64,000 nucleotides of DNA, from assembly GCF_003991565.1 (NCBI RefSeq), contig NZ_CP032819.1, forward strand, positions 1,178,001 to 1,242,000. The letters are read 5' to 3'. The notes beneath the pieces were generated by a model. The model was not told the origin of the DNA, ran no database searches, and saw nothing but the letters and a program-made list of their open reading frames with translations. Both the position numbers and the translations under genes were made by a program. Shown here piece by piece: positions 4,495 to 60,060 of this stretch. Source of the DNA: Butyricimonas faecalis. GTDB lineage: Bacteria; Bacteroidota; Bacteroidia; Bacteroidales; Marinifilaceae. Numbering within the stretch: position 1 is the first letter of the stretch; the number at the start of each line of letters is the position of its first letter.

Positions 4495-4920
4495 TCAATT
4501 CTTTTCCCTCGTGAAGGTGAATTTCCCCTCGATCCCCTGGCCATCCTTACTCACCCCAATGATCGTATCGTCATCTACCAAGATGCCAAACCAACTATCC
4601 AACTCGTACTCTATCTCATGTTCGGAATGAATAATATCAAACTCCTCGGCATCCAATTTTACCTTGTGTTCTTCAAGCCTTCCCACTAAAAACTCCTGCA
4701 ACATATATCCATCCTCTCCATCAAGTTTATCCGTAAAAATAATTCTCCCTGATAAATCATTCCCTTCCTGCTTCAGGAATAATTCACCCTCGGCCACCCC
4801 GTAGCCATAATCCTCTTTATATTTCCATTTACCTGTTAAATCCACCTTGCTAATTTTAGATTTTAGATTCCAACCACTCATTAATTTTAGATTTCTATCC
4901 ACGAAATACTCGTTTTTCAA
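4495..4920 (-). CDS. Hypothetical small acidic beta-rich protein
   Basis: I do not recognise this 141-residue protein. Its core (from about residue 27, DLTGKWKYKEDYGYG, to the end) has alternating hydrophobic and charged residues with glycine turns, as in small lipocalin-like or calycin beta barrels (TGxW start, L.G.I.F, W.G.L, G.FTFTR). No signal peptide is seen. The first 26 codons read through heptameric A/T-rich repeat DNA like that in many nearby spacers (LKSKISK comes from this repeat), so the real start may be Met15 or a later codon. It is followed by a strong terminator and preceded by 47 bp of the same repeat, with mazG upstream on the same strand. Confidence 0.6.
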   Translation of the reverse strand: MKNEYFVDRNLKLMSGWNLKSKISKVDLTGKWKYKEDYGYGVAEGELFLKQEGNDLSGRIIFTDKLDGEDGYMLQEFLVGRLEEHKVKLDAEEFDIIHSEHEIEYELDSWFGILVDDDTIIGVSKDGQGIEGKFTFTREKN

Positions 4921-4953
4921 TCATAAATCGTAATTCATAAATCATAAATTAAT
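4919..4953. repeat. Heptameric A/T-rich spacer repeat
   Basis: AATCATA, AATCGTA, ATTCATA and AATCATA follow one another with a 7-bp step. The unit is the reverse complement of TATGATT, found in the 12745-12821 tract. An almost identical run is at 24060-24093. Confidence 0.7.
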
Positions 4954-12741: not shown

Positions 12742-12744
12742 GCT

Positions 12745-12821
12745 GATTTAAGATTTATGATTTATGATTTATGATTTATGATTTGGGATTTGGGATTTAC
12801 GATTTATGATTTATGATTTCA
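12745..12821. repeat. Tandem array of eleven 7-bp units (GATTTAT type)
   Basis: Eleven consecutive heptamers start at 12745: GATTTAA, then five units in register of GATTTAT or GATTTGG, then GATTTGG, GATTTAC, two GATTTAT and GATTTCA. The step is exactly 7 bp for 77 bp. It fills nearly the whole spacer between engB and xseA. Confidence 0.9.
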
Positions 12822-21556: not shown

Positions 21557-21564
21557 AGTATGAA

Positions 21565-21628
21565 TTTAAAATTTAAAATTTAAAATTTAAAATGGCAGAC
21601 CATTCAATTCTAAATTTTACATTCTACA
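21565..21628. repeat. AATTTAA heptamer run between murG and murC
   Basis: Four successive AATTTAA heptamers are followed by related words (ATTCTAAATTTTACATTCTAC). This is another member of the 7-bp-periodic spacers of the cluster. Confidence 0.7.
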
Positions 21629-28264: not shown

Positions 28265-28330
28265 GACTTATTCATTTTAAATTTTAGATTTTAAATTCTA
28301 AACTCTAAATTTTAAATTCTAAATTCTTTA
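28265..28330. repeat. A/T-rich heptameric spacer between ftsI and murE
   Basis: Words such as AAATTTT, AGATTTT, AAATTCT, AAACTCT, AAATTTT, AAATTCT and AAATTCT follow with a 7-bp step over almost the whole spacer. Confidence 0.75.
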
Positions 28331-57299: not shown

Positions 57300-57588
57300 A
57301 TAAATAAGGTGTTACGTTATGATTGTTATCCGTCTTCACGGACAGTTCCACCTGTCCGGCATGGTCTGTCACCATCCGGCTGCCGTCATTCCTGCCGATG
57401 TCATACACGGCTTTGCCGAAGGTGTAGAGGGCAAGCGCGGAGAATGCGGCGAGCATCGCCAGCACGATGCGCCTGCGTGTCTTTGGCGGCAAGCCGTCCA
57501 GATAGCCCCTGAGCCTTGCCACCAGCATTTTCTTTTTGTCGTGGAGTTTCCAATATGCGCCCCAAAATGATTTCTTGATTTTCTTCAT
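57268..57588 (-). CDS. traL: Conjugative transposon protein TraL
   Basis: The 106-residue protein has a basic start (MKKIKKSFWGAYWKLHDKKK), a membrane helix (about 42-60, IVLAMLAAFSALALYTFG) and a short periplasmic tail. Its position between traK and traM and its small size identify TraL. The role is not known; it probably helps anchor the channel. Its last 32 bp overlap traM in another frame. Confidence 0.82.
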   Translation of the reverse strand: MKKIKKSFWGAYWKLHDKKKMLVARLRGYLDGLPPKTRRRIVLAMLAAFSALALYTFGKAVYDIGRNDGSRMVTDHAGQVELSVKTDNNHNVTPYLYGTDEERNED

Positions 57589-57594
57589 ATCCGT

Positions 57595-58218
57595 TTACCT
57601 TTTGATGGTTTGTAAATCCTTGTTCTCGATGATGGTGAATCCCTCGATGGTGAACCCGTTCGGGTTGTTGTCCGAACGGGACGAGTTCAAGAGGCGGCAC
57701 GTGGTCACGAGGCTGCGCTCGGTGACGTTGCTCTGCCGGATAATCTTCTGCGTGGCGTAGGTCACGGCACGGTAGGGATAGCCGTTGAAGTCGCATACCA
57801 CGCTGTCCACCTTCAGCACTTGGTTGATGTTCCCGGCGATGATGCGGTTGTAGTACCCCTTCTCGGCGAAGTCCGAATAGTAGTTGTACACGCTCTTGTC
57901 CGCCAGCAACAACGCACGCTTTACGTTGTGTTCTATCGCGCTCTTTTCGGGCGAGAGCGTGAAAAACAGTTCGTGGAAGCGGCGCACATGCTCCCTCGCT
58001 TCCGCCGGACGGTTCTGCGACAAGTCCTGCGAGAGTGCCAGCATCAGCGACTTGCCGTTGTCCAGCACATAGATCTTCTCACGCTGCCGTTCCGCGAAGC
58101 GGTAGGAACTCCACACGCTCCATACCGTTATCACGGCGCACAGCGAGAGGAAGACGATACCGAACAGGCGTATCTGCCTGAACGATGATTCGATGTTTTT
58201 GAGTGACTTGAATTCCAT
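57595..58218 (-). CDS. traK: Conjugative transposon protein TraK (VirB8-like)
   Basis: The 207-residue protein has a cytoplasmic start MEFKSLKNIESSFRQIRLFG, one membrane helix (about 19-36, IVFLSLCAVITVWSVWSSY) and a periplasmic domain with LDNGKSLMLALSQDLSQNRPAEAREHVRRFHELFF in pieces and SVYNYYSDFAEKGYYNRI. The layout is that of the VirB8-like assembly factors. It is separated from traJ by a 204-bp spacer holding five palindromic repeats, which breaks the tight packing of the operon. Confidence 0.87.
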   Translation of the reverse strand: MEFKSLKNIESSFRQIRLFGIVFLSLCAVITVWSVWSSYRFAERQREKIYVLDNGKSLMLALSQDLSQNRPAEAREHVRRFHELFFTLSPEKSAIEHNVKRALLLADKSVYNYYSDFAEKGYYNRIIAGNINQVLKVDSVVCDFNGYPYRAVTYATQKIIRQSNVTERSLVTTCRLLNSSRSDNNPNGFTIEGFTIIENKDLQTIKR

Positions 58219-58282
58219 TGTCTGATTTTATTTTTCGGTTCTTAATTCGTTATACAATAGGATTGGTATGCGGTCGTTTGCC

Positions 58283-58386
58283 ACATACGTATGTAACGGG
58301 TTACCACATACGTATGTAATGAGCCGCTGCATACGTATGTAACAGGCTGCTACATACGTATGTCATGACAGGCTACATACGTATGT
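58283..58386. repeat. Five palindromic 12-mers with a 23-bp period, between traJ and traK
   Basis: ACATACGTATGT, a perfect palindrome, occurs at 58283, 58306, 58352 and 58375; at 58329 it is GCATACGTATGT. The starts are exactly 23 bp apart, about 2.2 helical turns, so all sites lie on a similar face. The 11-bp spacers are only loosely alike (AACGGGTTACC, AATGAGCCGCT, AACAGGCTGCT, CATGACAGGCT). Confidence 0.95.
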
Positions 58387-58422
58387 TACTTTTATGCGGA
58401 TGCCTCTCCCGTAATTCAGCCT

Positions 58423-59427
58423 CTATTTCAGCAGTTTCCCGGCACGTCCGACCATGTTGCCTGCGGTAGCACCCGCCACGCTGCCCGCCATGCTTCCGGC
58501 TCGTCCTGCCGTCTGGTTCACGTTGCGACCGTAGCTTCCCATGCCTCCGGCTTGGATAATCCAGCCTGCCACCGTCGGGATGGTGAAGTAGCCGATGATG
58601 CCGATTATCATGAAGACGATGTACACCCCGTCGCTCGAATCCAGCGAGAAGTTCGGGTCAGCCTGCATCCGTTCGATGTCGCTTTGCAGCATCAACACCT
58701 GAATCTTGGCGAGTATGGTGCTGAATATGTCCGACACGGGCAGCCACAGATAGACCTGAATGTAGCGGCATATCCACTGCGTGAGCGTGCTTTGGAAGCC
58801 GTCCCACACCGATATGGCGAAGGCTATCGGACCGAGTATCGCCAGCACCACAAGGAAGAACGTGCGGATGGTGTCTATCACGAGGGCGGCGGCTTGGAAC
58901 ATCAGTTCCAGTATCTCGCGGAAGAAATCGCGGATGCCCTTCTTCATCTTGTACATCCCCCGGTCGATATACATCCCCGCCATCGTCACCATGTCGGAGG
59001 GCGACCAGCCCAATTCCTCCAGTTGCTTGTCAAACTCCTCGTTGGACACGAGGTAGGCGGTTTCGGGATTGCGCACCATCGCCTCGTATTCCAGCCTGTC
59101 CTTCTGCTCCCGGTACTTGTTCATGTCCAAAGTCTGCGTTTCGAGCAGTTTCGCCGTACCCTGCACGACGGGCGAGAGGACGCTGTTTATCGTGCCAAGC
59201 ACCACCGTAGGGAAGAACATGATGCACAGACCGACGGCAAAGGGGCGGAGCATCGGGAAGACGTCTATCGGTTCGGCTCTCGCCAACGACTGCCATACCC
59301 GGTAAGCGACATAGAAGAGCGCGCCCAGCCCGGCGATGCCTTTCGCCACGCCCGCCATGTCGGCGCACAGCGGCATCATCTGCTCGTAGAGCGAGCGGAG
59401 AATCTGGTGAAGGTTGTCGAACTCCAT
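58423..59427 (-). CDS. traJ: Conjugative transposon protein TraJ (VirB6-like)
   Basis: The 334-residue polytopic membrane protein contains MAGVAKGIAGLGALFYVAYRVWQSLA, FPMLRPFAVGLCIMFFPTVVLG, AILGPIAFAISVWDGFQSTLTQWICRYIQVYLWLPVSDIF in pieces and a glycine-alanine-rich tail. This is the VirB6 layout, forming the inner-membrane part of the DNA path. It starts 3 bp after traI. Downstream the operon is interrupted by the palindrome array. Confidence 0.88.
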   Translation of the reverse strand: MEFDNLHQILRSLYEQMMPLCADMAGVAKGIAGLGALFYVAYRVWQSLARAEPIDVFPMLRPFAVGLCIMFFPTVVLGTINSVLSPVVQGTAKLLETQTLDMNKYREQKDRLEYEAMVRNPETAYLVSNEEFDKQLEELGWSPSDMVTMAGMYIDRGMYKMKKGIRDFFREILELMFQAAALVIDTIRTFFLVVLAILGPIAFAISVWDGFQSTLTQWICRYIQVYLWLPVSDIFSTILAKIQVLMLQSDIERMQADPNFSLDSSDGVYIVFMIIGIIGYFTIPTVAGWIIQAGGMGSYGRNVNQTAGRAGSMAGSVAGATAGNMVGRAGKLLK

Positions 59428-59430
59428 AGG

Positions 59431-60060
59431 CTACCAGTATCTTTCGTTCATACTGCCGTACAGCCCCATGATGCGGTCGAGGTCGTTTTTCTTCTTCGCA
59501 CGCAGGTAGCTCACGCTGATGTTCTTGTTGGTGTAGTAGCTCACGAGGTTGCGGTAACGCTTCATCTTGGAGTGGCAGCGTTCCACCACGTCCATGCGCT
59601 CCTTGTCCGTCATGGAGAGCGTGATGATGTTCACCACGTTCTTCAGCTCCGTCAGCACGTCGTTTGATTCCTCCAGCAGCTTCGTGTAGCCGAAGGCGAT
59701 GGCTCCGAGTTCCTCCACCGTGAAGTTGTCGTCGCGCAGCATCTTCTGGAAGCTGGTCACGTAGATGTCCGTGATGTCGCCCACCATCAGGATGGTCTGC
59801 TGCACCTTGCGTGCGTCCTTGACCAGATTGTTCACCGATTTGAGGGCGTCGTAATACTTCTTGCCCTGCTCGTAGATTTTCACCGTTTCCTGAAAGTTGT
59901 TCACCATGTTCGTGGCGGTCTTCGAGGTATGGATGATGTTCTTCGAGGCGTTGATGATGCCCTGCGCCAGATTGCCCGGATCGCTCACGACCCATTGGGC
60001 GGAAGCCCTGCCCGCGAAAAGCAGGCACAGGCAGATGACGAATGTTATTCTTGTTCTCAT
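59431..60060 (-). CDS. traI: Conjugative transposon protein TraI (VirB5-like)
   Basis: The 209-residue protein has a signal peptide (RTRITFVICLCLLFAGRASA) and then is largely helical (QWVVSDPGNLAQGIINASKN, VNNFQETVKIYEQGKKYYDAL). The Q-W-V-V-x-D-P start and coiled helices match VirB5-type pilus tip or adhesin proteins of the DUF4141 family. It lies between the small lipoprotein gene and traJ. Confidence 0.86.
   Translation of the reverse strand: MRTRITFVICLCLLFAGRASAQWVVSDPGNLAQGIINASKNIIHTSKTATNMVNNFQETVKIYEQGKKYYDALKSVNNLVKDARKVQQTILMVGDITDIYVTSFQKMLRDDNFTVEELGAIAFGYTKLLEESNDVLTELKNVVNIITLSMTDKERMDVVERCHSKMKRYRNLVSYYTNKNISVSYLRAKKKNDLDRIMGLYGSMNERYW

Follow-up and report, generated by a model that had tools for sequence, protein, structure and literature searches.

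The gap between traJ and traK in a conjugative transfer operon of Butyricimonas faecalis carries five copies of the palindrome RCATACGTATGT at an exact 23-bp period (Table 1), and there is good support for assigning it to a class of intergenic arrays of tandem hairpins found in the Bacteroidaceae and their relatives. The class comprises 21-23-bp units, most of them built around a palindrome, in which the sequence is free to differ between arrays and the period and self-complementarity are constant. Within the window, that is, the whole stretch of 64,000 nucleotides that was analysed, the array has the properties of this class: a period of 23, a position in the gap at 58219-58422 and a fold z of -4.2. 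By analogy, the array would appear to work most like the REP/BIME elements, as a tandem hairpin array that we infer, with a probability of roughly 45%, to act on the transcript between traJ and traK.

Table 1. Features of the array and its surroundings in the window, with the sequence families of arrays found in the corresponding gap of related elements
Feature	Position	Strand	Basis or remark
Five-copy RCATACGTATGT array, 23-bp period	58283..58386	.	Motif matches; Tandem Repeats Finder; core conserved over spacers at four places
Degenerate sixth copy, one half-site GCATAC kept	58260..58271	-	In register, 23 bp past the fifth copy; half-site also in the other three places
traJ-traK intercistronic gap, 204 bp	58219..58422	-	ORF ends; about 31 bp in sister operons lacking the array
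traK leader past the array, strongly conserved close to the start codon	58219..58259	-	Alignment of four places
traJ, 334 aa, upstream gene	58423..59427	-	PF07863 CtnDOT_TraJ, E 4e-17
traK, 207 aa, downstream gene	57595..58218	-	No Pfam match; named from relatives annotated traK in plasmid records
Family RCATACGTATGT x5			Diverged relative ACTAACGTATGT in L369
Family GGTAGCTACC x2-3			L153, L300, L310
Family AAGTGNCACTT x3			L334, L335, L337, L338, L339
Family with a 22-bp repeat			L342
Family ACGSCGT x3			L391
Family with a weaker 22-bp repeat			L367, L368, L370

The operon belongs to the CTnDOT family, as indicated by the Pfam matches above cut-off, in order TraJ, TraL, TraM, TraO, TraQ, DUF4138 and DUF4141 (7/7). 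Its traJ-traK gap is the only long one, as an earlier note on this DNA had claimed, at 204 bp compared to 49 bp or less at the 12 other junctions between the traE-like and the lysozyme-like ORFs, with ORF ends picked by hand from the ORF list. The B. faecalis genome (G000) encodes six TraK homologues (C1:1235598, which lies in the window, 1307099, 1376153, 2630938 and 3564046, and C2:40313), so several related conjugative elements coexist in it, and only the window's TraK locus bears an array with RCATACGTATGT.

The copies begin on the forward strand at positions 58283, 58306, 58329, 58352 and 58375, and the third carries a G at position 1; the five copies, the exact step and the single variant described in the earlier note are all reproduced. 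At up to two mismatches the window contains six matches to RCATACGTATGT, five in the array with at most one mismatch and one elsewhere with two, compared to a mean of 1.86 in 100 shuffles of the window, of which one reached six, the register not being required. Tandem Repeats Finder called the array with periods of 23 and 46, and the self-match of the gap at lag 23 (score 46) was equalled at any lag by none of 300 mononucleotide shuffles. Elsewhere in the 5-Mb genome, the core 10-mer CATACGTATG is present at just one place, which by eye resembles integrase coding sequence.

Relatives were located by a scan of public genomes (at least 119 stretches), followed by tblastn of the tra proteins. Among the matches listed, the same array separates traJ from traK in Bacteroides finegoldii DSM 17565 (L063) and Xylanibacter muris (L078), and is also found in a rearranged remnant in Bacteroidaceae bacterium IMSAGC_004 (L090). 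The concern that the array might belong to a single genome, with neither core nor period conserved, is therefore put to rest by its presence in three other genomes. All four places bear five copies at a 23-bp step, one copy in B. finegoldii having a changed central base, and the variation in copy number asked about earlier is not seen for this core. Alignment of the four places reveals 3 variable columns of 60 in the cores compared to 19 of 55 in the spacers (Fisher p=7.7e-5); the cores are held while the interleaved spacers drift, which bears out the conserved cores and loose spacers claimed before. Likeness within each array is 93-100% among cores and 44-54% among spacers, and a CRISPR array, with its 24-48-bp repeats and unrelated spacers, is not supported, given the 12-bp core and the partly alike 11-bp spacers. 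In the IMSAGC_004 remnant (about 3600-4521 of L090), the array is retained, but traK breaks off some 56 residues in and runs into the end of traN. Ahead of the array stands a gene other than traJ, though its last codons match those of traJ.

The array is not a constant companion of its operon. Elements in two further genomes (G015 and G008) encode a TraK 100% identical and a TraJ 95% identical to those of the window; in both, the gap measures about 31 bp and holds no array, and the G008 element matches that of the window over much of its length, with few ORFs different. Because operons with 100% identical TraK can have this short gap, we infer that the array is an optional tuning element and not a core part of transfer. 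For the same reason, a role in the excised circle, whether as replication iterons, as a partition site or as a target for exclusion, which the earlier note had entertained, is very improbable: direct repeats about two helical turns apart may resemble iterons, but an operon with 100% TraK identity, set in an element with much the same genes, does without the array, as do most of the sister gaps read, and the array sits inside an operon and has similar counterparts in chromosomal gaps. No dedicated binder tracking the presence of the array was evident among the ORFs of the four elements compared. Of those ORFs, the only one common to X. muris and absent from both array-lacking elements is 376 aa in length and AAA-type by eye. 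It lies past the right end of the window (G000:C1, about 1248947-1253348), where two NTPase-like ORFs (by eye) of 1084 and 376 aa make up a cargo slot in the element; X. muris has the 376-aa ORF at 96% identity, and neither the G008 nor the G015 element has it.

The traJ-traK gap was then compared across a wider set of elements. TraK is present in 17 of 56 genomes of the family of B. faecalis and in 94 of 399 genomes of the family of X. muris, which we take to be labelled Bacteroidaceae after GTDB usage; NCBI places X. muris in the Prevotellaceae. From the latter family, the best-scoring 110 of the listed places were fetched. In total, 153 TraK loci were examined, 10 of which were dropped with the TraK start unaligned, and the 143 kept include the same place twice in two cases (L063/L302 and L078/L294). 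These loci yielded 85 unique gaps, 61 of at most 60 nt and 24 of 61-213 nt, so most gaps have no room for an array. Eighteen of the 24 long gaps were tested, the other six being near-copies or doubtful gap calls (L382, L346). The best self-match falls at lag 22 or 23 in 14 of these 18 representatives, which are not independent of one another, and 13 of them have a shuffle p of 0.05 or less; L368 stands at exactly 0.05, and L381 has lag 23 without significance. The exceptions are L334, with a lag of 45 (22+23), L343, which is not significant, and L161 and L149, each with a lag of 8.

The arrays in the long gaps fall into about six sequence families (Table 1). The position and the period of about 22-23 bp recur across elements; the sequence does not. 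Two of the operons with the GGTAGCTACC array, L300 and L310, encode a TraK with 100% and 97% identity to that of the window, and a plasmid relative of the L153 region, 95.7% identical over the matched part (86% of the query), is without the array of L153. Since the runs that related elements carry at this spot are spelled differently but spaced almost alike, and such runs are common between genes in the related gut-bacterial genomes sampled, the spacing and symmetry seem to be what is kept, and not the spelling. Unrelated palindromes of nearly the same period in one gap, and their commonness in related genomes, go beyond what a reading of the single window offered.

Presence or absence in near-identical operons, different sequences in the same gap and the many arrays per genome of some hosts are features that would also suit a neutral or selfish palindromic repeat, expanded by slippage and tolerated in the operon's only spacious gap. 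This explanation is nonetheless unlikely, as the cores are held while the spacers between them drift, the copy number is five at all four places, and no Y1 transposase was found in three array-rich genomes, two of them MAGs of unstated completeness.

An order-wide search for exact CATACGTATG pairs at 11-14 bp returned only 2 of 393 genomes, namely those of B. faecalis and X. muris. The core itself is therefore rare; what is common is the class. A scan for tandem repeats at lags of 14-40 in 1.72 Mb of five genomes yielded 70 repeats, 54 of which have a lag of 21-23. Only 4 of these 54 are coding, compared to 10 of the 16 at other lags; the median fold z is -5.8 compared to -1.0, and a fold z below -3 is reached by 42 of 54 compared to 3 of 16. 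As four of the five genomes (G439, G445, G446 and G447) had been picked for having matches, the fair sample is one of 400 kb from ten genomes selected for a TraK and long contigs, and not for arrays. In this sample, 16 of 19 tandem repeats have a lag of 21-23 (14 of exactly 22), with a fold z below -3 in 12 of the 16 and a median of -5.4, compared to 0.3 for the other three. In 100 kb of E. coli K-12, none of three tandem repeats has such a lag, and the same count (0/3) from 100 kb each of G008 and G015 indicates that array density varies. A stricter scan, limited to exact palindromic arrays with at least three copies, found seven in G447, which between them have four different cores at steps of 21-23 bp. 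It found none in 400 kb of Phocaeicola vulgatus, in 440 kb of the B. faecalis genome beyond the window or in the 200 kb from G008 and G015. Ten genomes were also searched for single motifs against a reversed-pattern control, and counts were raised in G446 (95 to 4), G452 (29 to 1), and G447 and G453 (17 to 1 each), and not in G445 (14 to 12). No description of such arrays in the Bacteroidaceae was found in the open-licence literature.

The class also has a preferred genomic setting. Of the 44 arrays that could be placed, 27 lie between convergent genes, which account for 21% of intergenic bases (p=9e-9); without the array-rich G446, tallied by hand, the figure is 14 of 25 (p=1.5e-4), and in the unselected set it is 6 of 16 compared to 16% of intergenic bases (p=0.03). 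Divergent gaps hold 4 of 44 arrays (p=0.004) and, in the unselected set, 3 of 16, which is not a significant depletion (p=0.30). These contexts rest on simple ORF calling, with two tra arrays called divergent moved by hand to tandem. Loci chosen by the CATACGTATG motif are 17 tandem, 12 convergent and 3 divergent, with 13 at contig edges.

In enterobacteria, intercistronic REP/BIME elements are thought to act by mRNA processing, protection or partial termination, and the array may act on the tra transcript in a similar way. Neighbouring copies would pair in the space separating the traJ and traK reading frames, giving hairpins at least about 12 bp long, these hairpins would direct the processing, protection or partial termination of the mRNA, and traK and the later genes would consequently be made in a different amount from the earlier genes. 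Such action at transcript ends is suggested by the combination of conserved stems and free loops, sequence-independent recurrence in one gap and the convergent bias. The contrast between core and spacer columns is that expected of stems and loops, the gap folds better than its shuffles as RNA (z -4.2), and in the two arrays with odd-length cores, the central base is G in some copies and C in adjacent ones, which favours pairing between copies. Other observations argue against action on the transcript. There is no consistent strand preference of folding, the sense strand being more stable in 13 of 20 tandem contexts with a mean difference of -0.7 kcal/mol; arrays form hairpins on both strands alike, and the gap folds equally well as DNA (z -4.7). 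Neighbouring copies in G446 display no covariation, and symmetry within its copies is in weak, non-significant excess (odds ratio 1.9, p=0.15). The shortness of most unique gaps and the absence of significant divergent depletion in the unselected set count on the same side. Permutation tests gave positive results for symmetry both within and between copies, but their nulls are biased by degenerate edge copies, and the tests carried no weight in the decision.

Some single copies carry symmetric double changes, as in GACTCGAGTC and ACTAACGTTAGT, which likewise argue against transcript action and would instead be in keeping with a dimer bound to double-stranded DNA. Were this a cooperative operator array, a homodimer of element or host origin would sit on each palindrome, the 21-23-bp step of about two turns would align the dimers, and different arrays would serve different proteins. 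The two-fold symmetry of each copy and the conservation of core over spacer are as such an array would have them, and the constant step is explained more easily by a protein footprint than by hairpins. An operator array is nevertheless a doubtful account, as near-identical TraK operons carry the RCATACGTATGT array, the GGTAGCTACC array or none, the sole co-occurring ORF among those compared is not an evident DNA-binding regulator, and the class favours convergent ends over promoters. The B. faecalis genome has no further intergenic core site, on which ground a host operator was rejected. A sigma-70-type scan of 57500-59500, whose model does not cover Bacteroides promoters, found no promoter-like site, which counts against an operator array, and the internal promoter suggested as one possibility in the earlier note is not supported. 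In common with operator arrays and iterons, the array has a conserved core, loose spacers and a constant helical step, but differs from them in having no evident link here to a promoter or replication gene and in a sequence that near-identical elements do not share.

The preferred reading, a hairpin array acting on the transcript, finds its closest model among the REP/BIME elements of enterobacteria and pseudomonads, including the GTAG-REPs with their RAYT. As far as the portion of the source cited here describes them, these are short, palindromic, self-complementary extragenic repeats that occur in clusters, mainly in gaps between unidirectional and convergent genes (PMC3733652), and in these respects the arrays are alike. 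The arrays described here differ in their head-to-tail arrangement, their fixed 21-23-bp step and their very many unrelated cores. GT[AG]G, invariant in GTAG-REPs, is present by eye at about 15 of 20 copies of the four tra arrays, the tag being absent from about 5 of these 20 and from several other cores of the class. The Y1 transposase (PF01797) has one match in the B. faecalis genome, two in G757 and none in G439, G446, G447, G617 and G008, with the completeness of G446 and G447 unstated. Given the inconstant tag and three array-rich genomes in which no Y1 transposase was found, a RAYT-driven REP is not supported, and the arrays are not filed as REPs of this type. No intrinsic terminator (GC-rich stem with a T run) was found in 57500-59500, in keeping with the earlier preference for a repeated site over a terminator, and the array itself is real.

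Uneven expression of such an operon has a precedent. The tra operon of CTnDOT is expressed discoordinately in dependence on RteR, a trans-acting small RNA, according to the portion of the source cited here (PMC7366714), and an operon of the same type can thus be expressed unevenly; that portion ascribes the effect to the small RNA, and no link to an intercistronic array is seen in it (PMC7366714). Searches with the gap itself gave no match to phages and plasmids (BLAST with the low-complexity filter on) and, for known RNA families, only two matches to one miRNA family far under the gathering score. The array pattern was not found in viral contigs, and GGTAGCTACC pairs there (18 stretches) were set aside by eye as chance or other repeats.

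A broader and more tentative proposal, which we hold to be improbable as it stands, is that the Bacteroidota possess pervasive extragenic arrays defined by a ruler of about 22 bp and two-fold symmetry rather than by sequence, that a putative 22-bp-measuring machinery builds or reads them at transcript ends, and that mobile-element operons gain and swap them at a single fixed site, the traJ|traK junction, thereby setting the ratio of early to late transfer proteins. Should the class be real and act at transcript ends, gut Bacteroidaceae would share a common feature, regulatory or insulating and nearly sequence-free, to which motif searches would be blind. Closely related operons that differ at the tra gap, having no array, the RCATACGTATGT array or another, form natural sets in which the effect of an array would be measurable, and the near-constant 22-bp period over unrelated sequences raises the question of what measures it.

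Several other repeats were encountered along the way. In the Bacteroides MAG G446 (L217-L234 and others), a dispersed element, in most cases made of four 22-bp units whose cores read CRTACGTAYG, has many occurrences among the matches listed and is often found at contig ends, so it probably breaks assemblies. In P. vulgatus ATCC 8482, a related array (L022, 3839-3914) fills the gap between convergent ORFs, 10 and 5 bp from the ORF ends, and its perfect palindrome of 26 bp, which is flanked at its two ends by runs of C and G, could, from its sequence, be a two-way terminator. Among the matches listed, the spacing differs in pairs from Colwellia, Thalassotalea, Variovorax and bacilli, which were put aside by eye as probably unrelated operators; those with the same core recur within a genus at fixed spacings of 31, 28 and 26 bp (Colwellia/Thalassotalea: L007, L014, L020, L030, L039 and similar places; Variovorax: L023, L026 and L040) and look like conserved operator pairs. 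The left half of the window contains several AT-rich 7-bp tandem repeats (AATCATA, TGATTTA and AATTTAA among them) at 4919-4949, 12744-12819, 21563-21593, 28274-28327 and other places.
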